Part shown: in pieces, positions 4,510 through 19,769 of the stretch
Position numbering within the stretch: position 1 is the stretch's first letter
Layout of the letters: the number at the start of each line of letters is the position of its first letter
IMG/VR virus record: IMGVR_UViG_3300044825_003425
Span: 1 to 29,555 of that record
Length of the DNA: 29,555 nucleotides
Reading direction: 5' to 3' (one strand)
Source of the DNA: a virus
Notes under the pieces: generated by a model
The model's input: only the letters and a program-made list of their open reading frames with translations
Told to the model about the DNA's origin: nothing
Databases searched by the model: none
Translations under genes and position numbers: made by a program

Positions 4510-4537
4510 TGTATAACCTCGCAGCGATACCACGCAA
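4510..4537 (-). promoter_or_regulatory. Minus-strand promoter of the structural operon
   Basis: Read on the minus strand there is a -35 TTGCGT, a 16-nt spacer and a -10 TATACA. The predicted start is near 4503, giving a leader of about 14 nt that contains AGGA before ATG 4489. The stretch GCGAGGTTATA over the -10 is the reverse complement of the TATAACCTC-type element found after the -35 of the plus-strand promoters. It strongly resembles the promoter at 24955-24983. Confidence 0.55.
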
Positions 4538-4588: not shown

Positions 4589-4617
4589 TTGACACGCTAT
4601 AAACCGCGATATATCTT
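4589..4617 (+). promoter_or_regulatory. Promoter P1, CTATAAMC class, leaderless
   Basis: TTGACA (4589-4594), a 17-nt spacer and TATCTT (4612-4617). The spacer carries CTATAAACC (4597-4605), starting 8 nt after the first base of the -35. A T/C-rich stretch (TTTTCTTTC) precedes the -35. The -10 begins 15 nt before ATG 4627, so transcription should start within a few bases of the start codon. Confidence 0.75.
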
Positions 4618-4626
4618 GTTCGGACA

Positions 4627-5652
4627 ATGAGCACACCGATTGACCCAAATCTTCCTGTGACCCGGACTGTGATTGTTGGTGGTACATCTGCCGCCGCCAA
4701 GGTGGCTTTTGTTCAGTCGCAATTGCGTGCGTCGGGGGCGCGCCATATCGGGGATCTCATCAGCTGGAATACGGACAGCATTGATGTTCCACGGGAAGAA
4801 GCTCGTGCTATCTTCGAGCAGATTGGGCTGGGACGTCTCATCCCCGAGATGGATCCGCAAACGGCGCTGAATCGAGCGGTCAAAGAGGCACGGCTCCGTC
4901 GCCAGGACGGGTTCACGGCAATGCCGTTTAAGAAGCCGAATGCAGACGCAGCTATGGCGTGGGGGATCTACCGTGTCGAGGCGAAGGACGGCGAGGCGGG
5001 CGATGCGCTTGTGCTTGGTGCACGTGTGCGCCTCATTGGCTCGCTCGCAGTGGTTTCTCCCCCGGAAGCAGGCGAGCCTGATGGAGAATGCATGGAGCGC
5101 GGTCGTGTGATTGTTGAGCATGCGAATCACCTGATCACGCACGTCGAGACGCGAGACATGAGCGGTGCATTGACTGCCACGGTGAACGCGTTGTCGGGTG
5201 TCCCGCTGCGCAACCGTGGCGGGTTCTATCTGTTGCCCCCGGCAACGTGCGAGCAATGGGCCTCGCTCCGCCCTGGGCTCGAACGCATGGGCGTTGGTCC
5301 GTTCGTGATCGAGATGTTCGACAGTCCGCAAGCGCTCCAGACTGCGGCAGCAGCGGCCCGTTCTGCGCTGGAGTCGGACATCGTCGAGCTCGTCGCGGAC
5401 CTCGAGAAGGCGCGGACGGACGGACTGCGGTCGGACGCGCTCGAGCGCCGGCTCGCCGCGTGCGAGTCACTTTGTGCGCGTGCGATGCTTTTCCGGGACG
5501 TCCTTCAGGATATGGCCGCGACAATCGAGGAGCGGGCGCAAGCACTCAAGAGTGCGTTCATCGCGTCGATGGAGAAGCCCGTCGTGGTGGTAGACGTGGA
5601 CGTGGTCCACGACGATCCAGATGCCGCGTTGTTTCAACTCGATGCAGCATGA
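4627..5652 (+). CDS. Uncharacterised 341-aa protein heading the MoxR/VWA cassette
   Basis: This is the first gene of the plus-strand cassette. It is transcribed from P1, apparently as a leaderless mRNA beginning almost at the ATG. The N-terminal two thirds are globular, with stretches such as AMAWGIYRVEAKDGEAGD, LGARVRLIGSLAVV and RNRGGFYLLPP followed by CEQWASLRPGLERMGVGPF. Residues about 240-315 are Ala/Leu/Glu-rich and probably coiled coil (SDIVELVADLEKA). The end is acidic. It precedes the MoxR-type ATPase and VWA genes, and uncharacterised proteins of this general type accompany phage MoxR/VWA pairs (possibly the DUF6744 group, from memory and untested). It may be a partner or substrate adaptor, which is inference. 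Confidence 0.8.
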   Translation: MSTPIDPNLPVTRTVIVGGTSAAAKVAFVQSQLRASGARHIGDLISWNTDSIDVPREEARAIFEQIGLGRLIPEMDPQTALNRAVKEARLRRQDGFTAMPFKKPNADAAMAWGIYRVEAKDGEAGDALVLGARVRLIGSLAVVSPPEAGEPDGECMERGRVIVEHANHLITHVETRDMSGALTATVNALSGVPLRNRGGFYLLPPATCEQWASLRPGLERMGVGPFVIEMFDSPQALQTAAAAARSALESDIVELVADLEKARTDGLRSDALERRLAACESLCARAMLFRDVLQDMAATIEERAQALKSAFIASMEKPVVVVDVDVVHDDPDAALFQLDAA

Positions 5653-5885
5653 CGTGTGCGGGCTACGACCCGCCTGTCTGCGCCGTGCTTTCAAGAAACG
5701 GCGTGGACAAGCTGGCCGCAGCGGCGAGCGAATGCGCAGGATATCCGGACGGACGACGGATGTTATGCGCGCATGGAGGAGCTTATGGATGGCAACGATA
5801 TCAAACGGGTGCGGCGTTCACGTATGCGAAAGAGCGTGCCACCAAATGCCGCAAAAGCGGCAGATGTGCTCGAAGATGTGTTTAA
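5649..5885 (+). CDS. Possible small overlapping ORF (doubtful)
   Basis: A 78-codon frame opens with an ATGA overlap at the stop of the preceding gene (MTCAGYDPPVCAVLSRNGVD). It fills the otherwise empty 5653-5784 gap. It also overlaps the better supported gene at 5785 by about 100 bases in another frame, and its end (KCRKSGRCARRCV) looks like a shadow reading. It may be a real short gene whose tail overlaps, or the stretch may be non-coding. Confidence 0.28.
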   Translation: MTCAGYDPPVCAVLSRNGVDKLAAAASECAGYPDGRRMLCAHGGAYGWQRYQTGAAFTYAKERATKCRKSGRCARRCV

Positions 5886-6126
5886 ACTAATCGGCGACAA
5901 GGGCAGCCTCACTTTGCCAGTCGAGGCTGTTTTGGCAATGGGCCTACCCGGCAAATGCAAGGGCGGCAAAATCACGAACGATGAAGTCCTCGACGCCAAC
6001 GAAGGCACACGTCACTGCGAATTCGACAAGGATGGGATCTCCTATTCGTTTGCGTACAACGAAGGGCCAAATCCGTTTGGTCCACAGAAGATGATCGACA
6101 TCACCGTCGAAGGCGTTTTTCACTGA
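5785..6126 (+). CDS. Small protein of unknown function before MoxR gene
   Basis: I chose ATG 5785 because GGAGG lies 5 nt upstream. This gives 113 aa beginning MDGNDIKRVRR. The longer frame from 5656 would run through low-quality sequence. The N terminus is basic (RVRRSRMRKSV), followed by a helical stretch (AADVLEDVFKLIGD) and a beta-rich C terminus (SYSFAYNEGPNPFGPQ, IDITVEGVF). No family is recognised. It is followed directly by a terminator and a new promoter, so it closes the P1 transcript. Confidence 0.7.
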   Translation: MDGNDIKRVRRSRMRKSVPPNAAKAADVLEDVFKLIGDKGSLTLPVEAVLAMGLPGKCKGGKITNDEVLDANEGTRHCEFDKDGISYSFAYNEGPNPFGPQKMIDITVEGVFH

Positions 6127-6134
6127 ACACCACC

Positions 6135-6185
6135 AAACGACAGGACCTCCTGAAACTTTCTTGGGTGTCCTGTCGTTTCTTTCTT
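6135..6185 (+). terminator. Intrinsic terminator fused to promoter P2
   Basis: There is a perfect 12-bp stem (AAACGACAGGAC at 6135-6146 with GTCCTGTCGTTT at 6167-6178). Extra inner pairs are likely, and a T/C-rich tract (TTTCTTTCTT) follows. The tract is at the same time the upstream part of the next promoter and overlaps its -35 box. Confidence 0.75.
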
Positions 6186-6211
6186 GACGCTCTATAAACT
6201 CGCATTATATA
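6184..6211 (+). promoter_or_regulatory. Promoter P2, CTATAAMC class
   Basis: TTGACG (6184-6189), a 16-nt spacer and TATATA (6206-6211). CTATAAACT lies at 6192-6200, again 8 nt after the -35 starts. Unlike most of its siblings it has a leader of about 43 nt, and GGAG lies 8 nt before ATG 6261. Confidence 0.75.
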
Positions 6212-6260
6212 CACTGCTCAACAAGTCGCACGGCGAGCGACGCAGCGCGGAGACACGACA

Positions 6261-7454
6261 ATGGCGAAAACAAACGGTGCATCGAAGACGGCAAAACATG
6301 AAGACACGAGCGAAACGGCGAATGCCGTGGACCTCGAGCAAGTCCGCAAGTCGTTCGTGCAGATTCGCGCGGGTCTCGAATCGGCCTACCGCGAACGCGC
6401 TGGTGCGATCGAGTGCGTGATTCTTGCCGCGCTGGCGGGTTGCCATGCGCTGCTCATCGGTCCCCCCGGCACGGCGAAGAGCGCGCTGTTCTTTTCATTC
6501 CTTGCGTCATTCACGGACGCTCGGAAGTTCCAGACGCTCGTAACGAAGTTTGGGACCGAAGACGAATACTTCGGTCCAGTGAAGCTCAGTGCGTTGAAGT
6601 TGGATAAGTGGGAGCGGAACCTGGACGGGCGCCTCGCAGCGGTGGAATGTGCATTTATGGATGAGATATTCAAGGGGAGCGATAGCCTCTTGAATACGTT
6701 GCTTAGTGCAATGAATGAGCGCCTGTACAAAGGCGAGTCTATCCCTCTTCGGATGCTCGTAGGTGCGTCGAACGAGCTCCCGCAAGAGGAAATCCTTGAT
6801 GCCGTCTATGACCGTTTTCTTTTGCGTGATGTCGTCGATTACATCGAAGCGGACGCGGTATGGATGGACCTGATGATCTCGCCGCCGACATACGCGCCGC
6901 CTGCACAGATTACGCTGGCAGAATGGGACGCGGCGCGCGCTGCCGTTGATGCTGTCGTGCTGCCTCGATATGTGGTCACCACGATGCTTGCCATTCGCAC
7001 GAACCTGAAAGCGGCCGGCATCATCGCGAGCGATCGTCGATGGCTCTCTCTGTGCCGTGTTCTTCGCGCGGCGGCATGGCTGGACGGCGAGACCGAAGTC
7101 GGGATGGACCACCTGCAGATCTTGCGGTTCGGGCTCTGGAACAAGCCGGAAGAACGCCCGGCGGTTGTCGCGGTGTTGGCCCAATTGGATAGGACCCACG
7201 TACAGAAGGCGAGCGAGATCATCGACGACGCATTGCGCGCCTACTCGCAACGGCCAGTGTCCGCATCGACCAGCACCAGCGAGCTTGCCGCACTTGTCGA
7301 AAAGATTGGCGCCGCTGCGACATCCGTTAAAAATATTCTCGATGGCGCGAAGAGCAGGCGTGTCACCGAACGTATCCAGCCGAAATTGACGGAACTTGGA
7401 TTGGCTTATGCCGACTGCAAAAAAGCAGTCACGAAGAGAATCGCGGATATGTGA
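6261..7454 (+). CDS. MoxR/RavA-type AAA+ ATPase
   Basis: This 397-aa AAA+ ATPase has Walker A GPPGTAKS at residues 67-74 and Walker B ending in MDE (D134, E135). Sensor 1 is the Asn of GASNELP near residue 171. Arginine-finger candidates lie in AVYDRFLLRD (about 181-190). A RavA-like SDRRW sensor-2 motif lies at 257-261, followed by the helical stretch RVLRAAAWLDGETEV and LWNKPEE. MoxR ATPases act as ATP-driven chaperones or metal-cofactor inserters, usually with a VWA partner. The next gene encodes exactly that, as in the E. coli RavA-ViaA pair. The C-terminal 100 residues are helical and family-specific. Transcribed from P2; a terminator follows. The target in the phage cycle is unknown. 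Confidence 0.92.
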   Translation: MAKTNGASKTAKHEDTSETANAVDLEQVRKSFVQIRAGLESAYRERAGAIECVILAALAGCHALLIGPPGTAKSALFFSFLASFTDARKFQTLVTKFGTEDEYFGPVKLSALKLDKWERNLDGRLAAVECAFMDEIFKGSDSLLNTLLSAMNERLYKGESIPLRMLVGASNELPQEEILDAVYDRFLLRDVVDYIEADAVWMDLMISPPTYAPPAQITLAEWDAARAAVDAVVLPRYVVTTMLAIRTNLKAAGIIASDRRWLSLCRVLRAAAWLDGETEVGMDHLQILRFGLWNKPEERPAVVAVLAQLDRTHVQKASEIIDDALRAYSQRPVSASTSTSELAALVEKIGAAATSVKNILDGAKSRRVTERIQPKLTELGLAYADCKKAVTKRIADM

Positions 7455-7487
7455 CATGAGCGGGGGGCTCGTGTCGCTTTCTTTCTT
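7453..7487 (+). terminator. Terminator fused to promoter P3
   Basis: GACATGAGC (7453-7461) pairs with GCTCGTGTC (7467-7475) in a 9-bp stem with one G-U pair and a five-G loop. TTTCTTTCTT follows and leads straight into the -35 box of P3. The stem begins within the stop codon of the ATPase gene. Confidence 0.62.
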
Positions 7488-7513
7488 GACAAGCTATAAA
7501 CTCGACACAAGAT
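7486..7513 (+). promoter_or_regulatory. Promoter P3, CTATAAMC class, leaderless
   Basis: TTGACA (7486-7491), a 16-nt spacer and a weak -10 CAAGAT (7508-7513). CTATAAACT lies at 7494-7502. The -10 begins 15 nt before ATG 7523, the same distance as in P1, P4, P6 and P7. Confidence 0.65.
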
Positions 7514-7522
7514 AGGCGCACC

Positions 7523-8698
7523 ATGATCCCGTATCAAAAAGCGGTCGTCGCACACGATTGCGTGAAGCGCGCACACAAAGACTTTCCATCGCTCGCGCTC
7601 GAGGTCTGGTCGGGTATCGTGGGCACAGGCAAGGTGGACCCCGGTTCAATCGGCGAAGCGCTGCGTGACACCGTGCCAGACGCGCATGCCGCCGTGGTTG
7701 CGTCGGTCGATGTTGCTGCTGCATACGCTTTCGATTTGTGGCTCCGCGAGTACACACGTCAGCGTGATTGGTGGACGCGTGCCAAGGCGTTCGAGCGCCG
7801 GGACGCGGCCCGGAAGATCTGGACGGAGTTCACCAAGCAAGCCGACCACGCGAAAGAAATCGCGTACGGATTTGGCTGGGACGATTCCGCCGCGTGGACG
7901 ATTCTGCGGGATGTCCGCCAAGTATCTGGCGACATGGCGCAAGTGAAGCGTATCGCCGCACTCGCGGGCCGGATGTTCGCCGCGCTGAATGGAAGCGCGG
8001 TCAAGCGCGTACCTGGCATGGCCGGCGAGATTTACTCAGTCGAGCAAGGTAACTCGATCGAGCGCCTCCTGCCCGCTGAACTGGCGCTGCTCGACTCGGG
8101 GCTGCTCGAGCTCCCGCTGCTCAATCGACTCGCGACTCGGCGCGCTGCGCAGTATGCCGTGCGTGGGACGCAGAAGCGCACACGCGGACCGCTTGTCGTT
8201 GCCATTGACGAAAGCGGCAGCATGCACGCCACACGCATTGAATGGGCGAAAGCGGCGGCGCTCGCGGTCGCGCGTGTCGCGCAAAAAGACAACCGTGTGA
8301 TGAAAGTTGTTCACTTCTCGACGTCGTGCGTCGTGCAGGACCTCCGTCCGTCCGACCCGGCGAGCGTGCTGGAGATGGTCCGCACGTTCCTCGGCGGAGG
8401 CACGGCGATTGGGACGGCGCTCGAGGCTTGCGTTGCGGAAGTCGCCGCGCTCGAGACGAAGGGCGCGCGAGGCGCGGACATCATCTGCATCACGGACGGC
8501 GTGGACGGCACCACGGACGCGCAAGAACGCGCGCTCGACATCGCGGACAAACTTTCCGCACGTCTCTGGACGGTAGGCATCGAGTGCGAAATCACGCCGG
8601 ACTATCCGATCCGGCGACGTGCGGTGACGTTCACCGAACTCGGACGGGATGGATTGACGAATGCGAGTACGGTGACGGCGCTCGCGCAAGCAACATGA
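7523..8698 (+). CDS. VWA-domain protein (ViaA/CoxE-like), MoxR partner
   Basis: This 391-aa protein has a helical N-terminal half and a C-terminal von Willebrand A domain. The MIDAS metal site is complete: D-E-S-G-S at residues 229-233, Thr294 in GGGTAIGTAL and Asp325 in ICITDGVDG. The linker NSIERLLPAELALL (about 177-190) is typical of ViaA/CoxE-type VWA proteins. In known pairs the VWA protein binds substrate and the MoxR ATPase remodels it. No signal peptide is visible, so it should be cytoplasmic. It has its own promoter (P3), whose start lies almost at the ATG, so dosage relative to the ATPase may be set independently. Confidence 0.92.
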   Translation: MIPYQKAVVAHDCVKRAHKDFPSLALEVWSGIVGTGKVDPGSIGEALRDTVPDAHAAVVASVDVAAAYAFDLWLREYTRQRDWWTRAKAFERRDAARKIWTEFTKQADHAKEIAYGFGWDDSAAWTILRDVRQVSGDMAQVKRIAALAGRMFAALNGSAVKRVPGMAGEIYSVEQGNSIERLLPAELALLDSGLLELPLLNRLATRRAAQYAVRGTQKRTRGPLVVAIDESGSMHATRIEWAKAAALAVARVAQKDNRVMKVVHFSTSCVVQDLRPSDPASVLEMVRTFLGGGTAIGTALEACVAEVAALETKGARGADIICITDGVDGTTDAQERALDIADKLSARLWTVGIECEITPDYPIRRRAVTFTELGRDGLTNASTVTALAQAT

Positions 8699-8704
8699 GG
8701 GAAC

Positions 8705-9661
8705 ATGGGCGAACAACTGAAACGAACTGGGACGATCAATCTTTTCGACACGCACTTCGGGATTTGGGAGGAAGGCCCAGAAGATAGGAAGCTTTGGGAT
8801 GCGTTCTGCGCTGGCTTGATGCACGTCTTTTCTGCATTACGTGGCCACCTATACAAGCGCGGATGGACGCTGCAAAAAGACGGCGGAGTGCACAAGGTCA
8901 TCCGTGACGGTCATTATGTTGGGCGCAAAGGTGACTTGGAAGCAGTGGTACAGTGCTCCGGCCGGACGTTCAAAGTCGAGTTTTTCCAGAACGTGAACAT
9001 CAAGAACCGGAACGGAGGACGGTACGATTTCGACAAATACGAGAAAGCACCACCGCGATTGCAGCGCCAAATGTGGGCGGAGATGGTTGCGCTCACGAAG
9101 TGGGCGCTGTCGGTCGGATATTGCTTCGAGTCGAAGGAACACCGCGGCCGTGTGCCGATCGATGTGTTGCGTCCCATCGAATTACAGATCCGCGATAGAA
9201 TGCAGACGCAAGTGCAATACGGAAACGATCCGCTCGATTACTTCAATCGAACGTGGGAGGTAGACCGATTCAAGCGTGGTGCAGATGGGTGGCCGCTCGA
9301 TTCCGAAATCGGCTCATATAACCGAAAGGATCGCGACGGAGCGCTGATGTTGAATGGCGACATCAGGTACTTCTACCATTGGGACAAGCGCGTTGGAGTC
9401 GGTCGAGTTTTCACGTCGATGAACAATATGTGGGAAGTCTGGTCGCTCGACCGCAAGACGCACCTGTCGAAGCAGGCGAGCTTCGAACTGTTCTCGTGTG
9501 CAGACGCCAGCAAGCTCCCGCGCCGGAAACCGTTGAAGCACGCTGAGCAGATCGCCCGCCTGCGATCCGAACTCGAGAAGGCGACAAAAACAAACGACTG
9601 GAAGCGCGTCCAGAAACTTGGTCGAGTGCTCGCACGACTGAGCACGCAGCAACAAAAGTAG
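8705..9661 (+). CDS. Uncharacterised 318-aa protein downstream of VWA
   Basis: It starts at ATG 8705, 6 nt after the VWA stop, with GAGGGA just upstream. It is rich in aromatic and charged residues, with HYVGRKGDLEAVVQ and KVEFFQNVNIKNRNGGRYDF around residues 70-110. Further on are GYCFESKEHRGRVP (about 137-150), DIRYFYHWDKRVGVGRVF and NNMWEVWS (about 218-245), and a basic C-terminal helix (AEQIARLRSELEKATK). I do not recognise the family. It shares the P3 transcript with the VWA gene and may be a third component of that cassette. Confidence 0.8.
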   Translation: MGEQLKRTGTINLFDTHFGIWEEGPEDRKLWDAFCAGLMHVFSALRGHLYKRGWTLQKDGGVHKVIRDGHYVGRKGDLEAVVQCSGRTFKVEFFQNVNIKNRNGGRYDFDKYEKAPPRLQRQMWAEMVALTKWALSVGYCFESKEHRGRVPIDVLRPIELQIRDRMQTQVQYGNDPLDYFNRTWEVDRFKRGADGWPLDSEIGSYNRKDRDGALMLNGDIRYFYHWDKRVGVGRVFTSMNNMWEVWSLDRKTHLSKQASFELFSCADASKLPRRKPLKHAEQIARLRSELEKATKTNDWKRVQKLGRVLARLSTQQQK

Positions 9662-9679
9662 CAGCACAATCTTTTTTTC

Positions 9680-9708
9680 TTGACGCGCTATAAACTGCGC
9701 GCTAGATG
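9680..9708 (+). promoter_or_regulatory. Promoter P4, CTATAAMC class, leaderless
   Basis: TTGACG (9680-9685), a 17-nt spacer and TAGATG (9703-9708). CTATAAACT lies at 9688-9696 and a run of seven T precedes the -35. The ATG inside the -10 (9706) cannot be the start. ATG 9718 lies 15 nt after the first base of the -10, as in the sibling promoters. Confidence 0.72.
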
Positions 9709-9717
9709 TTGCGGACC

Positions 9718-10197
9718 ATGAACGAGACGATGACAACGGCAGCAAATGTGGTGGCAGAACTTCAGTCCGGTGGGTTCGAGACGCGTCCCCTCTCTGGTCG
9801 CGAGTTCCCCGTTCCGCATAGCGTTGCCTCGGATCCTGCGTATCGCTGGCGTCTTCTCTCGATTGGCGCGTGTCGTCGCATTCTGCGTGCTGCATTCCCG
9901 CAAGAGAGCGGCAACATGATCGACCATTGGGCGGGTAACGAGAATCTGGACGCGTTCACTGGCTCGCTTGGTGTTCAGATTCGTGCGGCTGTTGCTGCCG
10001 CGATCTGTCCGCGCACGGACATCCTTCAGGATGCCGTCATCGGGCGACGCGCGCAGCACGTGCTCGCTGGCGTTCCGGCAAAGCCTGCGCGTGCGCTCCG
10101 TCCGCTTGACGTGGTTCGCACCAAGACGCGCACGGCGGAGCGTCAGGAAGCGATTGACGCGCTCGAGCTCGCCAACATGGGAAGGATGTACGCGTGA
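9718..10197 (+). CDS. Uncharacterised 159-aa protein, first gene of P4 operon
   Basis: The frame is open from 9706, but that ATG is part of the promoter -10 box. ATG 9718 fits the leaderless spacing and ATG 9730 is possible. The protein (MNETMTTAANVV) has a helical core (YRWRLLSIGACRRILRAAF, then DAFTGSLGVQIRAAVAAA). Its C terminus is basic and lies before the overlap with the next gene. No family is recognised. It heads a run of eight genes joined by 4-base overlaps up to 13103. Confidence 0.72.
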   Translation: MNETMTTAANVVAELQSGGFETRPLSGREFPVPHSVASDPAYRWRLLSIGACRRILRAAFPQESGNMIDHWAGNENLDAFTGSLGVQIRAAVAAAICPRTDILQDAVIGRRAQHVLAGVPAKPARALRPLDVVRTKTRTAERQEAIDALELANMGRMYA

Positions 10198-10379
10198 GTG
10201 TGTCCGCTCCCCGTCGCCCCGACGGATCCGAGTATCCGCCGGACATCCTGTTCCTTGCGGACATCTTCGGTGTCGAGCCGGAGAGCATCATGCGCAGCGG
10301 ACGAACCCCGTCCGAACGCACGGAACGAGCAACGGCAGACATGGGCCACTTGGTAGACCCCGACCGCTTTGCGGAATGA
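10194..10379 (+). CDS. Small protein of unknown function
   Basis: This 61-aa frame starts with GTG 10194, overlapping the preceding stop (GTGA). It contains PPDILFLADIFGVEPESIM, which could form a short helix-turn-helix-like segment, and an acidic end. The case for it is the 4-base overlaps at both ends. Confidence 0.6.
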   Translation: MSVSAPRRPDGSEYPPDILFLADIFGVEPESIMRSGRTPSERTERATADMGHLVDPDRFAE

Positions 10380-10906
10380 AAGGTATTGTTTCCATGGATC
10401 ACCCCATCATTCGATTTCTTCAACGCAATGATGCCCGCGAAACGTGGGAGTACGAGCGGCCTGTGATTCTTGCGGTCGAACTACTTTGCCTTATTGCTGG
10501 CGCATGGGCCGCGCCCACGCGTGACTCGATGTGGCTCTTGCTCGTGTCGTCCATGCCGCTCACTCTTTTGGCCACTGAGTTCGCGCGCGCTGACCGCTCT
10601 GGCGCTGCACGCAAAGCCGAGCGAGCAGCGGCGCTCGGTATTCCGTCGGTCACGCTTACGTGCGAAGCGGACATGGTCCGTGTCGCGAAGAACCGACAGC
10701 TGCTCGCCGCCACGGCGCCCATCGTCGCGCTTTCTGCATCGGTTGCTGGTGCTGGCGGTGCTGGCATCACGCGTGCTGCTGTCGTCAGTTTCATCGTGTC
10801 CGTCGTCCGGTGGGCGATGGTCGAAGCGTACGGAGCGTGGCGCGCGTGGTATCGCTCGCACGTGCCGGTCAATATCTGCGTCGGAAACGAAAGGACATCC
10901 TCGTGA
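10376..10906 (+). CDS. Predicted four-helix membrane protein
   Basis: This 176-aa protein starts at ATG 10376 (ATGA overlap) or ATG 10394, which has AAAGG 10 nt upstream. Two hydrophobic segments lie at about residues 29-46 and 52-69 and two more at about 109-131 and 134-150. The first hairpin contains ELLCLIAGAWAAP. The plus-strand genes at 16573 (ELFALIAGAFAEP) and 19779 (LALGAFGAYAHEP) carry a related motif. It is probably in the host inner membrane. It has none of the features I would expect of a holin beyond size and hydrophobicity, and no lysis genes lie nearby. Confidence 0.7.
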   Translation: MKGIVSMDHPIIRFLQRNDARETWEYERPVILAVELLCLIAGAWAAPTRDSMWLLLVSSMPLTLLATEFARADRSGAARKAERAAALGIPSVTLTCEADMVRVAKNRQLLAATAPIVALSASVAGAGGAGITRAAVVSFIVSVVRWAMVEAYGAWRAWYRSHVPVNICVGNERTSS

Positions 10907-11625
10907 GTGCAACGGGTCGTGGTTCGCCGCGTATGCGGTTCGATTGGTACCGGACGCCCGCATGGTCATTGCTTCGGTTTCTCGACGAGCATGTTCTGTC
11001 TGGCGCGGGGACACGATACGTCGAGCCTGGTGCAGGCGATGGCATCCTGATCCGCGCGCTTGACGCATGGCGCGAGCGCCGGCGGTTGTCCCCGGTCCAT
11101 TGGGACGCGTGGGAGATCGACGAGCAGCACCGACGACTGCTCGAGGTCACCAGCGCGCGCGTGCACATTCGCGATTTCTTCACGTCGCACGTCCCCGCGT
11201 CTCTCTATGATGTCGCGCTTGGAAATCCGAGCTACGAGATCGCCGAGTCAGTGTACCGGCATTGTCGCTCGATTGCGCGCCAAGTGGCGCTGCTACTGCC
11301 GCTGGACTTCCTCGGAAGTGCTGAGCGACACGCGCTGTTCGCGGCGGATATGCCAGACATCTACGTACTCCCACAGCGTCCGACGTTCGTCGTGTCAAAC
11401 AAGATTGACGTGGACGGCAAGATGACCACGACGACGAGCGACGCGCAGGTCTATTGCTGGGCACATTGGCCCGAGCATAGGCAACCATTCGGCAAGGTGC
11501 GTATCCTTGGATTGACTCCGGGGGATGTCCTGTCAGGTGCGCGCGCAGCGGCCCCGCAGATCTGGATCGAACGAGGCGAGATCGTCCGGGTGGATCCGGG
11601 CGATCCTTTCTTCATTGGGAGATGA
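10903..11625 (+). CDS. SAM-dependent DNA (adenine) methyltransferase-like protein
   Basis: This 240-aa protein starts at GTG 10903 (GTGA overlap, AGGA upstream). ATG 10933 is an alternative. Its opening FDWYRTPAWSLLRFL resembles the 'D-(F/W)-Y-x-TP' opening of phage N6-adenine methyltransferase-like proteins. Motif I is VEPGAGDG (residues 40-47) for S-adenosylmethionine binding. The catalytic motif reads NPSY (108-111) instead of NPPY, a known tolerated variant. EID at 71-73 may be the acidic SAM contact. It may modify phage DNA against host restriction. Whether it is active, and on what site, cannot be read from the sequence. Confidence 0.75.
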   Translation: MSATGRGSPRMRFDWYRTPAWSLLRFLDEHVLSGAGTRYVEPGAGDGILIRALDAWRERRRLSPVHWDAWEIDEQHRRLLEVTSARVHIRDFFTSHVPASLYDVALGNPSYEIAESVYRHCRSIARQVALLLPLDFLGSAERHALFAADMPDIYVLPQRPTFVVSNKIDVDGKMTTTTSDAQVYCWAHWPEHRQPFGKVRILGLTPGDVLSGARAAAPQIWIERGEIVRVDPGDPFFIGR

Positions 11626-12879: not shown

Positions 12880-13103
12880 CCTGCCAGCGCTTCACCGCTC
12901 CCGGTGCCGATCTGTTCATCTGCGGTCGCAATCTTCGCTCCTGTTATCGGTGCGGCCACACCGCACGGACATCCTGCCAGTTCGATGGGTGCGATCGCCC
13001 GTTGTGCGACGGACACGCACGCAAGGCCGACGGACAAACTCGCTGTTCGCAGCACGCGCCAATAAGCGTGAATGAGAACATGCCGAAACCGCCAGGTCGC
13101 TAG
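12876..13103 (+). CDS. Small zinc-binding protein
   Basis: This 75-aa protein starts at ATG 12876 (ATGA overlap). It has a dense Cys/His pattern: CYRCGH, then C-x-FDGCDRPLCDGHA, then CSQHA. This suggests one or two structural zinc sites of treble-clef type. It is the last gene of the P4 operon. Its stop overlaps the stop of the convergent gene in CTAG, leaving no room for a terminator between them. Confidence 0.72.
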   Translation: MTCQRFTAPGADLFICGRNLRSCYRCGHTARTSCQFDGCDRPLCDGHARKADGQTRCSQHAPISVNENMPKPPGR

Positions 13104-13504
13104 TTTATCATTCCGCCGGACATCCTACCGAATAACCGCGCATCATCCAGCTCGTACACGACAACCCGCGCAGCCTGATCTTCGTCCGTCACCGGACAGT
13201 ACTGCCCGCGAATCTCTGTGCTCTCGCCGTCGTTCGTCCCAGTCGGCACAACACGTACGCCGTACGTGCGGAGCAGCGTCGCGAGCCTCTCGCATTCTGC
13301 CTGTAACAGCCAGCGCGCACCGACGACAAACTCGATATACGGGCCGTGCTCCACGTCCATCCCGTCTGAGCTTCGCGTCGTATCGAACCCATGCGCGCGC
13401 AGCCATTCGACCGTCCGACGCACACCCGCGTCGATATTCTCCAGGACATCCTTCGGAAGAGCATCGACCGTGCGATCCATACTGTCGTTCTGTGTGTCTT
13501 GCAT
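13100..13504 (-). CDS. Uncharacterised 134-aa protein downstream of terminase
   Basis: I chose ATG 13504 (MQDTQNDSMDR) because the longer frame to 13900 lies inside the terminase gene. ATG 13480 (MDRTVDALP) is an alternative, and neither has a clear ribosome-binding site. The helical opening ENIDAGVRRTVEWLRAHGFD is followed by HGPYIEFVV, CERLATLLRTYGVRVV and VVVYELDDARLFG, an alternating helix/strand fold. The gene is probably co-transcribed with the terminase. I do not recognise the family. Confidence 0.7.
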   Translation of the reverse strand: MQDTQNDSMDRTVDALPKDVLENIDAGVRRTVEWLRAHGFDTTRSSDGMDVEHGPYIEFVVGARWLLQAECERLATLLRTYGVRVVPTGTNDGESTEIRGQYCPVTDEDQAARVVVYELDDARLFGRMSGGMIN

Positions 13505-13526
13505 GTGCGCGTGAACATAGCGCGAA

Positions 13527-15080
13527 TCAGGCGACGCGCACGCCCACGTTGCCGCCCGCAACAAGCTCGTAGTCGCGCGCCCCATGCGAACCAATCCAGC
13601 AGCCCATGAGCCGATCGCCTGTGTGTGCGTCGGGGCTGAACGCATAGATCTCTCCGATCCACTCAGACACCTCCGGCGCGCACACACCATTGTCGTTCGG
13701 GACGATCCACCGGCCCTGCGACATCTCGATGCCAATCGCGGTGACACCGAGCGCGGGGTTCCACTTGTTGACGTTTGTCTGGAACGCGAGCACGGGGAAC
13801 GGGCGCACGGCTCCCCCGGTCTCGTCGTACGCCTGCTGCTGCATGAAGTGGAACAGCAGCATCTGCGTCGCGTTTGTTTCGACGAACACGACCGAGCCAA
13901 ACCGTTCGTGGGCGCGACGCGCGCGTTTGACGATTTCCGGTCCGTCCCAATGCCCGCTTTCGACAGAGATTACCTGCCGCGTACCCGGCGGATACACGAC
14001 CTCGGTGCCGTCGTCGGTGGTGAACCGCGCACCTCGCGGATACACGAGCAGCGTGAACACGCACGAACGCCCGCTGCCATCGGTCTTGCCGACACCAATG
14101 TCCACGCCTGTGACGGTGAAGCATCCTTCGGGGATGTCCTCTGGGGCGAGCGATTGTAGCAGGCCAAGTCCGTCACCGAGCGCGAGTGCTTTCTCGACCC
14201 AATCTTCCTTGAAGTGGACCGAGCCTTCGCGCACCGCTACGCAATCGATCTGCCGGATTGTCTCGGGCGCACCTTCCCCACCACAGTCGATCACCTTCTT
14301 CGCGATGACCTCCGACGTGTACCGCTGCGGCCATGTGGGAGCGCCCGTCTTTGGGTCGCGCATTGGGAAGCGGCGCGCAACATAGCCAGGCTTGCGTGCG
14401 TACTCGTGTACGAGATCGTCAGGGTGGTATGCGGTGTTCAAGAAAACGACGCGTGCTTGTCTGGTCAAACGCGAAGCGATCGTCTGCTTGAACCACGCGG
14501 ACAGCTTCTTGCGCTGTCCCTTCGTGCGCGCCGTGCGCCACGTGCACACGTCGTCGACGATCACGAGATCCGCGCGTGCGCCCTGAATCGAACCGAATAC
14601 GCCGCATGCACGGATAGATGGATCGCGCGCGAAGCTCGTACGCTCCACCGTGAGCCGATGATCGGTCCACTTCTCCTCGCGACCAGCTCGAGCACCACGC
14701 TTCGCTTTCGCGGGGCGGAGTTTCGGAAATACGAGATGCAGCTCCGCGCTCTCATCGATGTACCGGCGTATGGCCGAGACAATCTCTTCAGCCTTTTCGT
14801 CGGTCTCGCTGACGATGACGATGCGGAGGTTCGGATTCTTGCCGAGCTCCCAGAGCGCGCGTCCAACGCTGATCGCGATCGACTTGCCCGCTTCCGCGTG
14901 CGCCCACAAGCAAAGCCTGGGTGTCTCAGAGATCATCCGATGCCACTGCTCGTGCATCGGCGCGTTCTCGAACGGTTTGTCCGGGTCCTCGTCGTCGCGC
15001 AGGACAAACGAGTTGAACGCAGATGGATTGTTCTGCGCGATGACCGCACATGAGCGGCGCGCGTCTTCGACCGCTTTCAT
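13527..15080 (-). CDS. terL: Terminase large subunit
   Basis: The packaging motor ATPase and headful or site-specific nuclease, 517 aa from ATG 15080. The open frame continues to GTG 15209 (560 aa). That GTG lies inside the divergent promoter, so a later start is favoured, but GTG codons near 15152 and 15176 remain possible. The Walker A is the divergent form AHAEAGKS (residues 60-67), common in terminases. Walker B is LVIVDD (172-177), followed by the coupling region VVFLNTAYHPDD (about 211-222). The RNase H-like nuclease has Asp327 in VTGVDIGVGK, Glu401 in VVFVETNATQ and Asp489 in HTGDRLMG. All motifs are intact. It is separated from the portal cluster by about 9 kb of plus-strand genes, which is unusual. 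Confidence 0.92.
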   Translation of the reverse strand: MKAVEDARRSCAVIAQNNPSAFNSFVLRDDEDPDKPFENAPMHEQWHRMISETPRLCLWAHAEAGKSIAISVGRALWELGKNPNLRIVIVSETDEKAEEIVSAIRRYIDESAELHLVFPKLRPAKAKRGARAGREEKWTDHRLTVERTSFARDPSIRACGVFGSIQGARADLVIVDDVCTWRTARTKGQRKKLSAWFKQTIASRLTRQARVVFLNTAYHPDDLVHEYARKPGYVARRFPMRDPKTGAPTWPQRYTSEVIAKKVIDCGGEGAPETIRQIDCVAVREGSVHFKEDWVEKALALGDGLGLLQSLAPEDIPEGCFTVTGVDIGVGKTDGSGRSCVFTLLVYPRGARFTTDDGTEVVYPPGTRQVISVESGHWDGPEIVKRARRAHERFGSVVFVETNATQMLLFHFMQQQAYDETGGAVRPFPVLAFQTNVNKWNPALGVTAIGIEMSQGRWIVPNDNGVCAPEVSEWIGEIYAFSPDAHTGDRLMGCWIGSHGARDYELVAGGNVGVRVA

Positions 15081-15194
15081 CAGCTCGCGCTGCTGAGCGA
15101 TGGATGCTCGCGTCGCTTGATCTGTTGCCGTTGGGTGCGCAGCCGCTTGCACTCCGCCGACACTACAGCGAGGCACGCAAATGCGCACGCTTTC

Positions 15195-15222
15195 TTGACG
15201 GACTATCACGCGTGATTACTGT
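15195..15222 (+). promoter_or_regulatory. Promoter P5, variant element, with leader and RBS
   Basis: TTGACG (15195-15200), a 16-nt spacer and TACTGT (15217-15222). The element after the -35 reads CTATCACGC (15203-15211), a variant also seen in the minus-strand promoter at 24955-24983. The leader is about 20 nt and GAGGAG lies before ATG 15250. The promoter overlaps the longest possible N terminus of the divergent terminase frame. Confidence 0.65.
15205..15216. repeat. 12-bp perfect palindrome inside promoter P5
   Basis: ATCACGCGTGAT is fully self-complementary and sits between the -35 and -10 boxes of P5, where a dimeric repressor could bind. It also lies just upstream of the divergent terminase gene. 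Confidence 0.6.
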
Positions 15223-15249
15223 CTTGGTTCGCGTGAGGAGTCATATCGA

Positions 15250-16119
15250 ATGGGAAAGACATCCAGCCAAGTCGTGATTGCTGGGACCGACGCGACCATC
15301 ACGCATTGTTCTCTATGTGGCCGAAAGACACCAAAGTGTAAGTGGTGTTGGAAGGGTGGTGGTGGCGATCCACCAATGCCTGAGATGGCATCGTGGAAGA
15401 CTTGGCGACGTGGGCTTGAACGTGTTTTACGACGTGAGTTGAAACGCGCTGATGTGAATTCTGATGACGAACAACGCACCATTGAAGCGGTGCTTTTTGA
15501 CCGTGGAACAGTGCCATCAAGCGCAGAACTGATCGCGCTTCCATACCTTGCGCGAATGTGTTCCGAGGGTCGGTATAACGCTGGTCGTTCGACGGCACTG
15601 CTCACACGTCGCATCCATCTCGAACTTCGTCGTGTGTACATACCTCCTGACCAAGAGACGTTCATCGAGCGTATTGAGCGTATGCGTCGATTGACGCGCG
15701 ACGAACTCATTGCGCAAACAAAGCGTGATGCGGAAGAACAGCAGCGAATACAAGCGCTCTCTTGGCATCTCGAAGATCTGGCCTGCATTTCGGTGATGGC
15801 GGCAAATCGTCTCCGGCGCGCAGGAGTCACGCCAGCACAACGAACCTTGGCTGAAATCGTGGAAATTGTTGTGGAGCGTGTGGGTACAGATGCGTCGCTC
15901 CGGATCCCACATGCGCATTGGTGGCGAATTGCATCTGGTGTCGCTGCCGACGAGTTACGTAAACGCAACACGCGTATTCGTGTGGAACCGGCAAAACGGA
16001 TCCGTGTCGCGGATAGTTTTCCCACGTCGAATGAACAGGACATCCTCGCGGATGAAGAGGCACGCGCATCCGCCGATGCTGCTGAGCAACCCCGCGTGCG
16101 AAAGGCGAGAGCAACATGA
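15250..16119 (+). CDS. Uncharacterised protein with N-terminal zinc knuckle
   Basis: This 289-aa protein starts at ATG 15250 behind GAGGAG. Residues 20-33 (CSLCGRKTPKCKWCW) form a CxxC-x6-CxxC zinc knuckle, followed by Gly-rich GGGGDPP. The rest is helical and Arg/Glu-rich (RRGLERVLRRELKRA, ERIERMRRLTRDELIAQ), with possible coiled coil around residues 135-175. A basic segment near 235-255 (ELRKRNTRIRVEPAKR) may bind nucleic acid. It is divergent from the terminase and opens the second plus-strand cassette. Its codons look less GC-biased at third positions than those of its neighbours, possibly a recent acquisition. A packaging or regulatory role is possible but unproven. Confidence 0.75.
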   Translation: MGKTSSQVVIAGTDATITHCSLCGRKTPKCKWCWKGGGGDPPMPEMASWKTWRRGLERVLRRELKRADVNSDDEQRTIEAVLFDRGTVPSSAELIALPYLARMCSEGRYNAGRSTALLTRRIHLELRRVYIPPDQETFIERIERMRRLTRDELIAQTKRDAEEQQRIQALSWHLEDLACISVMAANRLRRAGVTPAQRTLAEIVEIVVERVGTDASLRIPHAHWWRIASGVAADELRKRNTRIRVEPAKRIRVADSFPTSNEQDILADEEARASADAAEQPRVRKARAT

Positions 16120-16538
16120 GCGAGAGTAAACCAGCGTGGCTCGACCAATGGATTGATATGCAATCGAAGAAGCGTGTGTACGACGAAGTCGCGGTTTCAT
16201 CGATGCGCGCAGCAGCGAACAGCAGCGCCGAAATGCGCAACATCATGCTCAGGTATCCGCCGTATTGCGTGATCAGTTTTCCGGAAAAACAGGCGACGAC
16301 ATTCGGCATCGTCATGGGTGTAACCATGATCGAACTGGACAAACCGACCAAAGGAATGCCGAGGCGCAAGCTTGCGATTCGACATGTCCCAAGCCCGTTA
16401 CATATCGCGGGCGCGACGACTCCGCACGAACAGGAAATAGGGTATGTGTTCCCTGAAGGCGTTGACGTGATCGCGTACTCGCCGCAGTTCACACCCGAAA
16501 CAATGCGCGCACTCATCGCGCCTGTGGGTTCTGCATAG
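16116..16538 (+). CDS. Uncharacterised 140-aa protein
   Basis: It starts at ATG 16116 (ATGA overlap). A helical N terminus (WLDQWIDMQSKKRVYDEVA) precedes a beta-rich body (PPYCVISFPEK, FGIVMGVTMIEL, KLAIRHVP, IGYVFPEGVDVIAYSP). No catalytic signature is seen. It is co-transcribed with the zinc-knuckle protein from P5. Confidence 0.68.
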   Translation: MSESKPAWLDQWIDMQSKKRVYDEVAVSSMRAAANSSAEMRNIMLRYPPYCVISFPEKQATTFGIVMGVTMIELDKPTKGMPRRKLAIRHVPSPLHIAGATTPHEQEIGYVFPEGVDVIAYSPQFTPETMRALIAPVGSA

Positions 16539-16572
16539 ACTCGCGTGCTCTGCATGGCGTAGAACGCACACC

Positions 16573-17001
16573 ATGCACAAGACTTCCCCTTCATTCGATT
16601 TGCCTGTGCGCTCGCAGCTTCGCGAGCATCTTCCACTCGTGCTTATTGAGTTGTTCGCGCTCATTGCTGGCGCGTTTGCGGAGCCAAGTGCGCACACGCT
16701 TGCGCTTCTCATCGCGTTGCTGTGCGTTCGTCATGGTCTGCTCGCGTGCGTCGCGACGTACCGCAGCATGCAGGCAAGACGCGCAACCCGTGTGTCTGTC
16801 GAGGTGCGTCTGGCCGAACGTCCGAAACCAGAGCAGCGCGAGCATGGCGTGACTGCTGGCGGTGGATTGGTCGGTCCTATGGCACCGCTAGTCGATCAGA
16901 AGACCAGCCCGTACGATTGTCACGGGATCGCGCAGGCTGTTGAAGCTGTCATTGCAACGAAGAACAACATCGATCCGAATCCGACAAAGCTCACTGAGTA
17001 G
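16573..17001 (+). CDS. Predicted membrane-hairpin protein
   Basis: This 142-aa protein starts at ATG 16573. No ribosome-binding site is visible in the 34-nt gap before it. Residues about 19-36 and 40-62 form two hydrophobic helices, with ELFALIAGAFAEP at 26-38 clearly related to the motif of the 10376 gene. A basic segment follows (RSMQARRATR). The C-terminal half is soluble and polar, ending in GIAQAVEAVIATKNNID. Its 3' end overlaps the convergent methyltransferase gene by 11 bases. Confidence 0.65.
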   Translation: MHKTSPSFDLPVRSQLREHLPLVLIELFALIAGAFAEPSAHTLALLIALLCVRHGLLACVATYRSMQARRATRVSVEVRLAERPKPEQREHGVTAGGGLVGPMAPLVDQKTSPYDCHGIAQAVEAVIATKNNIDPNPTKLTE

Positions 17002-17944
17002 TGACGGCTGCACGCACGTCGCTCACTGCAGCACCAAGTCGTCGAAGCGATGTCTCGATCGCGACGTTCGACGCGTCCATTCCGATCCACTTGCGTCCGT
17101 GTTTCTCCGCAACCGCGAGCGCCGTGCCAGACCCGCAGTAAGGATCGAGCACCGTGTCCCCTTCGTTTGAGAACGAAAGAATCACCCGCTCGAGGAGCGC
17201 CTCTGGTTTTTGCGTAGGATATCCTGTTCGTTCGTGACCCGATGGTGCAACCACCGGGATGTCCCACACGTCAGACAGTGGCGGGCCTGCGCTCCACTCG
17301 TCGGTTGTCTCGCTCTTCACTCGCTGTTTGTCCCGGACCACGGCACGCTGTTTCGCGCCGCCGAACGTGCGCTGCGTGCTCTCTGCGAGAGGCTCATATC
17401 CGGGGAGCGCGTTGAACGTGTGCGAGTCTGAAGCTACATACACGAGCAGCACGTCGTGCATCCGTTGCAGGCGTTTGGATGGTGTGGGCCAGCGTCGGTA
17501 ACGCCAAACGATCTCGTTCACGAATTGCTCGCGCCCGAACGCTGCATCCATCAGCACACGTACGAGATGCGTCATCGTGTCGTCGATGTGCACGACGCAC
17601 ACGCCACGCGGTGCGAGCAAGCGCCGGAGCTCGACGAGACGCACAGCAAGGTGCACCAGGAACGCGCCATCTGCCTTGCGCTCGTACAGCTCGAGGAGCG
17701 TGATAAGTGCGCGGAGCACCCAGCGCGGCGTCTCTCCAGGCATCTGTGCAAGCTCGCTGATGGTCGCCTCTTCGTCGTGCGTCCATGCCCATCTGTCCGA
17801 GTACGCGACCGCGCCGGAGCGCGCCCGGAAGATCTCGCCCGTGCGGAATGGCGGATCAGCGTACGCGAGGTCAACAGAACCGGCGGCCATCCGCCGGAGT
17901 TCGGCGATATTGTCGCCGTGTATCAAGCTCCCAGACATACGCAT
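16991..17944 (-). CDS. Beta-class DNA methyltransferase (N4-cytosine or N6-adenine)
   Basis: This 317-aa protein opens MRMSGSLIHGDN. ATG 17938 is an alternative start. The motif order is catalytic first: VDLAYADPPF (D30-PPF33), then motif X-like GYPTQKPEALLERVI, then SAM-binding LDPYCGSGT (266-274) with IGMDAS after it. That order is the beta class, as in many type II and orphan modification enzymes. A variable target-recognition region lies between (about 140-235, including WRYRRWPTPSKRLQRM). No restriction endonuclease gene is adjacent, so it is an orphan enzyme, probably protecting phage DNA or marking sites. Its recognition sequence is unknown. It is the only minus-strand gene between two plus-strand cassettes. 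Confidence 0.88.
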   Translation of the reverse strand: MRMSGSLIHGDNIAELRRMAAGSVDLAYADPPFRTGEIFRARSGAVAYSDRWAWTHDEEATISELAQMPGETPRWVLRALITLLELYERKADGAFLVHLAVRLVELRRLLAPRGVCVVHIDDTMTHLVRVLMDAAFGREQFVNEIVWRYRRWPTPSKRLQRMHDVLLVYVASDSHTFNALPGYEPLAESTQRTFGGAKQRAVVRDKQRVKSETTDEWSAGPPLSDVWDIPVVAPSGHERTGYPTQKPEALLERVILSFSNEGDTVLDPYCGSGTALAVAEKHGRKWIGMDASNVAIETSLRRLGAAVSDVRAAVTTQ

Positions 17945-17985
17945 AAGGTACGCCCGAAATATTTTTGCGCACGCTCGTTTGTTTC

Positions 17986-18014
17986 TTGACGGTTTATAAC
18001 CTGCGCGCTATACA
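17986..18014 (+). promoter_or_regulatory. Promoter P6, CTATAAMC class, leaderless
   Basis: TTGACG (17986-17991), a 17-nt spacer and TATACA (18009-18014). TTATAACCT lies at 17994-18002, and TTTGTTTC precedes the -35. The -10 begins 15 nt before ATG 18024. Confidence 0.78.
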
Positions 18015-18023
18015 TGCAGAGTC

Positions 18024-18191
18024 ATGAACCGAGCGGGTGCAGAACTCAATGCCATTATCGCCACGACCGAACCGCACATCGAGCAGCTCGAACGAGAAGC
18101 GGCGCGGCGAAGGTGGGCGATGGACATCGAGTGCGCAGCCATTCTCGCGCGCATGGATGCGACGACTCTCCGTCGCGAACTAACCCGATAA
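18024..18191 (+). CDS. Small helical protein, first gene of P6 operon
   Basis: This 55-aa protein (MNRAGAELNAIIATTEPH) starts at the exact leaderless distance from P6 and ends with TAA at 18191. It is entirely helical and charged (IEQLEREAARRRWAMDIECA) and may form a coiled coil. No family is recognised. The promoter spacing and the good ribosome-binding site of the next gene just after its stop support it. Confidence 0.65.
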   Translation: MNRAGAELNAIIATTEPHIEQLEREAARRRWAMDIECAAILARMDATTLRRELTR

Positions 18192-18203
18192 TTGGAGGTT
18201 GTG

Positions 18204-18467
18204 ATGCCGAATGTCGAATGGATCCTTGGTTCTATTCTTTCCCTCTCTGGTTGGCGCTTGGATGTTTTGCTGGTCCGTGTGACCAGCTTCTCGCGCGTGC
18301 TGTTTCTGGGTGTCGCGTTCGCGGTGAGTCCACCGGCCGCACAGCTCGTTTCGCCGGATGTCCGGATGGATGCGCGGACGGTCATTGACACGGTGGGCTA
18401 CGCCGTTGAAGAGACGGACGAACGCGCGGATATCCTGACGGATTATGCGTTCGGATTGGCGGCGTGA
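18204..18467 (+). CDS. Small hydrophobic protein of unknown function
   Basis: ATG 18204 has GGAGG 7 nt upstream. This gives 87 aa beginning MPNVEWILGSILSLSGW. Residues about 5-50 are hydrophobic and could include one or two membrane segments (VLFLGVAFAVSPP). The C terminus is acidic (EETDERADILTDYA). Family unknown. Confidence 0.6.
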   Translation: MPNVEWILGSILSLSGWRLDVLLVRVTSFSRVLFLGVAFAVSPPAAQLVSPDVRMDARTVIDTVGYAVEETDERADILTDYAFGLAA

Positions 18468-18468
18468 C

Positions 18469-18711
18469 GTGGCCTGGACGAAGCGCCAACTGATGGACGC
18501 GACGGTCATCCGGCTCATGGAACGCGGGCCTGGTGCGGGCACGTTCTATCTGATGAACAAGCAATCCACCGGCTGGTCATCGAGCTGTTACCCGTACGCG
18601 ACGCTCTCTGCGCTGCTCGCGGAATGGGACGTCGAACTCGGCCGCCACGACCGTGATCAATGGAGCGCGTTTATTCACGCGTATCCAAGAAAGAAGAGCG
18701 AACAAGGATGA
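18469..18711 (+). CDS. Small protein of unknown function
   Basis: GTG 18469, just after the preceding stop, gives 80 aa (AWTKRQLMDATVIRLMERGP). ATG 18445 would add 8 residues with overlap. The middle (GTFYLMNKQSTGWSSSCYP, then ATLSALLAEWDVELGR) looks like a compact helix/strand domain. It overlaps the next gene by 4 bases. Confidence 0.6.
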   Translation: MAWTKRQLMDATVIRLMERGPGAGTFYLMNKQSTGWSSSCYPYATLSALLAEWDVELGRHDRDQWSAFIHAYPRKKSEQG

Positions 18712-19277
18712 GCACAAGGACTATTGCAGACATCGCGTCCACTCTCGCGACGCAGGATAATGAATGCACCGTGAATCCCATGTTCGTCGTGCAGAAGCAC
18801 GAACGCATTTGGGGCTTGAGCCTCGATTACGTCGAGGACTACGTGTGGGTATCCGTCGAGGATTTCGAGCGTCACGAAGCCGATGAGAAGACCACCAAGC
18901 AGCTCGAACAATTGCACCAAGAATCGTACGATGACGAGATCGAACTCGATGACGATGACGGTTGCAAAGTCAAATGGACGCGCGTCGGATACCGCGATCA
19001 ATGGGTCTTCGTCACGGCGTGTCTCACGCGTGTGGGGTGCGAGGAGTATCTCCGGCTGAACGGGCATAACCTGGGCAAGACCCGGATCATGGTCGATGGC
19101 GAAGTCCGGAACAAAGAATGGGAGACGCTCCGCGCTCATATCGCGCGTGTGCCTCACGTTCATGCAGCGATCAAAGCAGCGAGTCAGGCACATGTCGACG
19201 GGAACAAGCCGCTTCTTGCTGATGCGCTTGGCGCGCTGATGGCCATCATCACGCACGCTGAAGGATGCCCACCGTGA
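18708..19277 (+). CDS. Uncharacterised 189-aa acidic phage/plasmid-type protein
   Basis: It starts at ATG 18708 (ATGA overlap), beginning MSTRTIADIAS. Key stretches are NPMFVVQKHERIWGL, an acidic stretch (ESYDDEIELDDDDG, about 77-90), YRDQWVFVTACLTRVGCEEY and LRLNGHNLGKTRIMVDG. From memory, proteins of this general build are common in phages and plasmids without known function. No catalytic motif can be named. It overlaps the next gene by GTGA. Confidence 0.78.
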   Translation: MSTRTIADIASTLATQDNECTVNPMFVVQKHERIWGLSLDYVEDYVWVSVEDFERHEADEKTTKQLEQLHQESYDDEIELDDDDGCKVKWTRVGYRDQWVFVTACLTRVGCEEYLRLNGHNLGKTRIMVDGEVRNKEWETLRAHIARVPHVHAAIKAASQAHVDGNKPLLADALGALMAIITHAEGCPP

Positions 19278-19513
19278 GCACCCATAGCGCGCAGGAAATG
19301 CGGTTCGACATCGACATCGAACCGCTCGGACATCCCGGCGGACCGACGAAGCCCGTCCCGGTATACGCGCGCTCCGCATCTGCTGCGGCGCGTATCGCTC
19401 AACAAGTTTTCCCGCGCGGCGAACAGCGCGTGCGTGCCGTTCGATTGGACTCGCGCATCGTTTGGGAATCGCAGAACCACATGACCAACAATGAGCAGAA
19501 TATCCCATGGTGA
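19274..19513 (+). CDS. Small protein of unknown function
   Basis: GTG 19274 overlaps the preceding stop (GTGA) and gives 79 aa (STHSAQEMRFDIDIEPLG). ATG 19265 is an in-frame alternative. It is a compact alpha/beta sequence (VPVYARSASAAARIAQQVF, RVRAVRLDSRIVWES) with no recognised family. Confidence 0.6.
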   Translation: MSTHSAQEMRFDIDIEPLGHPGGPTKPVPVYARSASAAARIAQQVFPRGEQRVRAVRLDSRIVWESQNHMTNNEQNIPW

Positions 19514-19737
19514 CGATTCGCGAAGCATCTGGGTGCGTGCACGCTGGGATTCACCTACACGGTGCTGGCGGACCAATGAACCGACAGGGCATCGAACGCG
19601 AGATCCGGCGAGCAACGGCGGGGCGCGATCTGCTCATCTATGAGCCCGTACCTGGGCACGCGCGCGCCTACGTACAAACGTCGCTTGTCGACTGCAATGA
19701 ACGCATAATTGACTTGCGCGGAGCGATGCTACTCTGA
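19507..19737 (+). CDS. Small protein of unknown function
   Basis: It starts at ATG 19507 or GTG 19510, both overlapping the preceding stop, and encodes up to 76 aa. The second half (RQGIEREIRRATAGRDLLIY, then ARAYVQTSLVDC) looks like a small alpha/beta domain. It is the last gene of the P6 transcript. No terminator is visible before P7. Confidence 0.52.
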   Translation: MVTIREASGCVHAGIHLHGAGGPMNRQGIEREIRRATAGRDLLIYEPVPGHARAYVQTSLVDCNERIIDLRGAMLL

Positions 19738-19740
19738 CCC

Positions 19741-19769
19741 TTGCTTCTCTATAACCTGCTGGTTACACT
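19741..19769 (+). promoter_or_regulatory. Promoter P7, CTATAAMC class, leaderless
   Basis: The -35 is weaker (TTGCTT, 19741-19746), followed by a 17-nt spacer and TACACT (19764-19769). CTATAACCT lies at 19749-19757, 8 nt after the -35 starts, and the -10 begins 15 nt before ATG 19779. The conserved element and spacing make the call despite the weak -35. Confidence 0.65.

Follow-up and report, generated by a model that had tools for sequence, protein, structure and literature searches.

A spacer word in fixed register with the −35 box in the predicted promoters of an uncultured tailed phage

Results

The phage fragment

The window, by which we mean the whole stretch of DNA analyzed here, is an IMG/VR virus record of 29,555 bases with a GC content of 59.7%. 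It is a fragment of a tailed phage and carries genes for a portal protein, a MuF-like head protein, a terminase, a MoxR ATPase-VWA pair and methyltransferases. Among phage records we found no near relative. A sister contig (L032) is 93% identical over 1.9 kb at the window's left end only and continues into structural genes, and for the MoxR-like ATPase, the 8705 protein and the terminase IMG/VR yielded no close relative. An actinobacterial host is only a guess, made from the leaderless starts and from the relatives of the methyltransferase and phrog_5845.

The MoxR-type AAA ATPase adjoins a VWA-domain protein (6261-8698), an arrangement that is uncommon in phages, and the MuF-like head gene contains a mini-intein-like stretch (CFAAGTPVLMADGS ... 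HN, about 158-681, minus strand) that is also present in the sister contig. The octamer GGACATCC/GGATGTCC occurs 28 times compared to 1.4 expected, about every kilobase on both strands and mostly inside genes; the sister contig has it 14 times in 10.4 kb, and distant relatives lack it. GGAYRTCC has 36 sites in the window (1-29555).

A set of promoters with a common spacer element

The first-pass annotation had described seven plus-strand promoters with a nine-base element in the spacer. All seven lie where it placed them and read as it had given them, and every plus-strand transcription unit of the window (4627, 6261, 7523, 9718, 15250, 18024 and 19779 onward) opens with one such site. An eighth site, TTGACTACCTATCACGC, lies on the minus strand at 24983, and the leave-one-out motif places it among the top eight positions of the window. 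It has the CTATCACGC form of the element in common with the plus-strand site at 15195. The predicted promoters are:

4589..4617, plus strand: TTGACA-N17-TATCTT; spacer element CTATAAACC at 4597-4605; leaderless ATG at 4627
6184..6212, plus strand: element CTATAAACT at 6192-6200; gene ATG at 6261, with leader and GGAG
7486..7514, plus strand: element CTATAAACT at 7494-7502; leaderless ATG at 7523
9680..9708, plus strand: TTGACG-N17-TAGATG; element CTATAAACT at 9688-9696; leaderless ATG at 9718
15195..15223, plus strand: element variant CTATCACGC at 15203-15211; ATG at 15250 with GAGG
17986..18014, plus strand: TTGACG-N17-TATACA; element TTATAACCT at 17994-18002; leaderless ATG at 18024
19741..19769, plus strand: TTGCTT-N17-TACACT; element CTATAACCT at 19749-19757; leaderless ATG at 19779
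24955..24983, minus strand: eighth promoter, TTGACT-N17-TATAGA; element CTATCACGC at 24975-24967; precedes the minus-strand gene starting at 24897
4510..4537, minus strand: variant promoter of the HTH gene and the structural operon, TTGCGT-N16-TATACA (16-bp spacer), read by eye

The register of the element is fixed, as had been claimed: in 7/7 plus-strand sites the distance from the first T of the −35 box to the start of the 9-mer is exactly 8 nt. The annotation had further noted TTTCT before most −35 boxes, and TTTC is indeed found directly 5' of TTGAC in six sites; the exception is the site at 19741, which lacks TTTC and has TTGCTT as its −35 box. The variant promoter of the HTH gene carries TATAACCTCG on the opposite strand over its −10 box.

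To count the motif against expectation we used 500 dinucleotide shuffles of the window, with both strands counted. TTGAC-N3-YTAT occurs seven times on both strands compared to 0.13 expected (shuffle maximum 2), and YTATAAMCY occurs eight times compared to 0.08 expected. Within 40 bp after the 52 TTGACs of the window TATMA is found at offset 9 only, seven times. A motif search of the window, of the kind proposed earlier for the whole genome, separates the set clearly: the members score 18.5-34.6 bits in a position weight matrix built from the eight sites, the next best position reaches 9.7 bits, and each held-out site still ranks above all non-members in 29.5 kb if the matrix is built from the others. 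The interval from 9.7 to 18.5 bits is empty and all eight sites lie at promoters, so that no free-standing sites were found in the window.

Promoter anatomy

The information profile of the sites consists of a conserved TTTC, TTGAC, three free bases (N3), YTATMAMSY and then the TA of the −10 box, 17 bp from the −35 box. TTGAC is present in 7/8 sites and corresponds to the −35 box of a sigma70/SigA promoter. The −10 boxes had been described as variable, which applies to their letters but not to their position, since the TA occupies one fixed offset in 5/8 sites (p=0.0008, shuffling) and lies within one base of it in 7/8 (p=0.0002, shuffling). The accompanying view that the set is the opposite of an ordinary sigma70 promoter was overstated: −35 box, 17-bp spacer and −10 box are of the sigma70/SigA type.

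In 5/7 plus-strand units 37-38 bp separate the start of the −35 box from the ATG and no Shine-Dalgarno sequence is present, whereas the units behind 6184 and 15195 have leaders with one (GGAG and GAGG, respectively). Judged by this layout, five of the seven plus-strand units have leaderless promoters of the sigma70/SigA type with predicted transcription starts.

The spacer element is under selection: CTATAA does not change from site to site, whereas the three bases next to it (N3) are random. The same contrast argues against recent copying, and a recent duplication of one promoter was ruled out by the random N3 and flanks. The best four matches of the window to TATAACCT-N2-AGGTTATA all lie in promoters (19750, 17995, 24957 and 4512), the one at 4512 being in the HTH gene's own promoter. 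The best dyad, TATAACCT-GC-TGGTTACA, belongs to the promoter at 19741. These matches suggest that the −10 box is overlapped by a dyad or a half-site; the symmetry is clear in three to four sites, and the others keep one half alone.

Hairpins next to the promoters

Hairpins flank some of the promoters; a search of Rfam gave no match.

6135..6178, plus strand: terminator-like hairpin, −23.2 kcal/mol, z −5.6; its T-tract runs into the promoter at 6184
7451..7477, plus strand: terminator-like hairpin, −19.9 kcal/mol, z −4.0; its T-tract runs into the promoter at 7486
24916..24959, minus strand: hairpin, z −4.2, directly downstream of the promoter at 24983; its 5' arm contains the predicted start

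At 6184 and 7486 the TTTC is thus the T-tract of the upstream hairpin. That TTTC is a mere terminator T-tract throughout was ruled out, as the tract is also present at 4589, 9680 and 17986, where no stable hairpin directly precedes it. In the arrangement at 24983-24916 (minus strand) transcripts that read through from the upstream gene might be terminated and those of the promoter itself might escape.

Distribution in other genomes

In IMG/VR the strict motif TTTCTTGACNNNYTATAAMCY gave 24 single matches, most of which were out of register and almost all of which came from AT-rich contigs. A version with two further G/C bases gave seven single matches over about 85,000 GTDB species genomes. We had concluded from these strict scans that the motif is private to this phage, and dropped this after a looser scan; the strict sequence itself remains private. 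The looser, register-complete pattern CTTGAC-N3-YTATMA-N9-TA-N13-ATG occurs in 87 IMG/VR stretches, many of them perhaps by chance, where the chance level in such pattern scans is our own estimate and not the output of a tool. Two contigs, related to each other and incomplete like the window, stood out, G004 (IMGVR 3300023179_000237) and G005 (3300007735_000628). TTGACNNNYTATMA has 14 plus 3 matches and 0 control matches in G004, and 15 forward, 0 reverse and 0 control matches in G005.

Alignment of the matching sites revealed dozens of putative leaderless promoters of the form TTGAC-TTT-CTATAAAA or TTATC(A/G) in the same register as in the window, with a TAnACT-like −10 box at 16-17 and the ATG mostly at 36-38. 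After TTGAC, offset 9 has TATA/TATC 21 and 20 times, compared to five times at most for any other offset. TAT at +9 is present in 13/31 (G004) and 13/32 (G005) register-matched promoters, and many others have a looser A/T-rich TAA. Each contig has about 20 leaderless promoters with TTGAC-N3-YTATMA at +8, and both A-form and C-form elements occur, as in the window; unlike the window, their N3 is mostly TTT, the element continues with AAAA or TTT, and the GC content is 44-45%. In addition, three GC-rich viral contigs (L066, L086 and L102) have single leaderless genes for XRE-like regulators behind TTGAC-N3-YTATMA promoters. No such promoters were found in the compared stretches of the portal relatives (L033-L054).

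The first-pass annotation had named occurrence of the spacer in ordinary host promoters as a point against its proposal. The strict motif yields scattered singles in GTDB, and the register-complete pattern (with TAnnnT) was found in 1/398 genomes of Pseudomonadota, the group covered by the loose scan. The layout thus recurs in phages and, at least for the groups that were sampled, is not that of an ordinary promoter of bacterial chromosomes.

Candidate regulators

3902..4489, minus strand: candidate regulator, an HTH protein of 195 aa whose gene opens the leftward structural operon

The HTH protein has weak matches to HTH_29 (5e-5, below the cut-off) and HTH_8 (1e-4, 22.4 bits with a cut-off of 22), no match in PHROGs or among solved structures, and no close relatives in IMG/VR. 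An AlphaFold model computed without an alignment was too poor (pLDDT 43) and was discarded. By its position and the weak HTH matches the protein is a candidate only for the regulator of the spacer. A second candidate DNA-binding regulator is the protein at 26396-27037 (minus strand), with a SANT/GcrA-like N-terminus, as read by eye, and a Cys-rich C-terminal segment; it has no convincing family match.

Discussion

Operators located in the spacer are familiar from tetO in PLtetO-1 and from lambda OL/OR, where the repressor site with TATCA-type letters lies between or over the −35 and −10 boxes. Those operators are dyads at one or two promoters, whereas the window has mostly a half-site at eight. 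Cluster A mycobacteriophages have operators and stoperators (L5 GGTGGMTGTCAAG, Bxb1 GTTACGWDTCAAG; PMC3029335, PMC5712189) bound by a small repressor protein that contains two DNA-binding domains (PMC9283540). Reverse-complemented, these sites resemble ours in having CTTGA(C), two or three loose bases and a specific block, and they are likewise asymmetric, intergenic and oriented with transcription. They differ from the sites of the window, which are all promoters with a −10 box, none of them free-standing, and have a longer gap; searches of domain families, PHROGs and solved structures with the HTH protein gave no sequence match to a Cluster A Rep protein. Leaderless SigA promoters have been predicted in Cluster O mycobacteriophages (PMC4351075), with SigA-type boxes at about 17 bp, a predicted +1 at the start codon and several dispersed units as in the window; no spacer element is described there, and the 17-bp repeat of these phages lies mostly away from promoters (PMC4351075). 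The start-associated repeats SAS/ESAS of Cluster K, whose function was left open (PMC3203893), are also multi-copy, phage-specific repeats directly 5' of start codons in dispersed small units, with an inverted-repeat extension. SAS however marks translation starts, and a −35/−10 register is not described (PMC3203893).

That something reads the spacer word is argued by its fixed helical phase and exact letters, and the −35 box, spacer length, −10 box and leaderless starts point to the main sigma factor of the host. What the first-pass annotation had proposed, a promoter class with a reader of its spacer, holds for the class, for selection on the element and for the layout, which recurs in other phages and is not that of ordinary chromosomal promoters in the sampled genomes. 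Beyond this we infer the use of the host's sigma70-type polymerase, a reader other than the polymerase, its origin from the phage and the sign of regulation.

We propose, at about even chances, that the spacer word is an operator through which a phage DNA-binding protein switches non-structural units that are mostly leaderless and driven by host sigma70/SigA. The main (sigma70/SigA-type) RNA polymerase of the host would transcribe the non-structural genes from dispersed, near-identical promoters in which TTTC-TTGAC (the TTTC in six of them) is followed by three free bases, by YTATMAMSY and, at 17 bp, by a weak −10 box. The phage protein would dock on the spacer word in a single helical phase with respect to the −35 box, overlapping the polymerase footprint, and may switch all units together, with repression as the simplest mode and co-activation as a possible one. 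This is in agreement with the random N3 next to an invariant element, the leave-one-out separation, the site at every plus-strand unit, the dyad-type matches in promoters including that of the HTH gene, and the XRE-like regulator genes of the three GC-rich contigs behind the same leaderless layout. As a class, the strict motif is missing from the species of GTDB and from other viral contigs, which fits the rapid change expected of phage operators.

Several observations weigh against an operator. Most sites conserve the left dyad half alone, the window has no free-standing sites as Cluster A has with its stoperators, and the relaxed A/T-rich TAA of G004 and G005 fits a preference of the polymerase equally well. 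Since the window and these two contigs have no detectable gene in common (tblastn, E 1e-3), a shared phage regulator is not visible. The many half-sites, the relaxed element and the missing shared regulator make a serious rival of the idea that the host RNA polymerase itself reads the spacer word, by shape or an A/T-rich contact in the upstream spacer half, as a promoter-strength element that needs no extra regulator. The same register in phage contigs without shared genes and an element that grades into looser letters would agree with this; the exact letters in the window (AAMCY in addition to TAT), including the C-rich CTATCACGC form, and the single genome among 398 Pseudomonadota would not, and we regard it as possible, if somewhat unlikely. 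A regulator of the host, hijacked by the phage, could also bind the element, as phages often use host regulators; since a search of about 85,000 species genomes for the strict site gave scattered single matches only, this seems improbable.

Two readings dispense with the sigma70-type promoter. TTTCTTGAC-N3-CTATA could be the promoter of a single-subunit, T7-like RNA polymerase of the phage: the block aligns with the T7 consensus TAATACGACTCACTATA at GAC-N3-CTATA and has the right length, about 22 bp of it being conserved, and the terminase is weakly related to T7-like maturase B. This leaves the significant −10 box at 17 bp and the ATG 9 nt behind it unexplained, the +1 is A here where T7-type enzymes favor G, and no polymerase gene was seen in the 29.5 kb of this incomplete genome, so that we consider it very improbable. 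Even less credit is due to TATAAA as the TATA box of an archaeal host, about 26 bp before leaderless ATGs. The distance from TATA to ATG is 25-27 bp in five units and the starts are leaderless, but TTGAC with TAnnnT at 17 bp is a bacterial pair of boxes, the related proteins are almost all from bacterial phages, and the proteome is neutral and not halophilic.

A wider and rather speculative idea, which we hold to be unlikely, is that unrelated phages with leaderless genes share a spacer-reading architecture (TTGAC, TAT at +9, a −10 box at 16-17 bp and the ATG at about +38), served by an undescribed class of phage or host factor that associates with the polymerase and recognizes the upstream half of the spacer. 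For uncultured phages the layout provides a sequence rule that predicts transcription starts, and the promoter rule would mark genes that are switched jointly. The sites further offer clean, in-phase material for testing what reads the spacer of the promoter, a phage factor or RNA polymerase.
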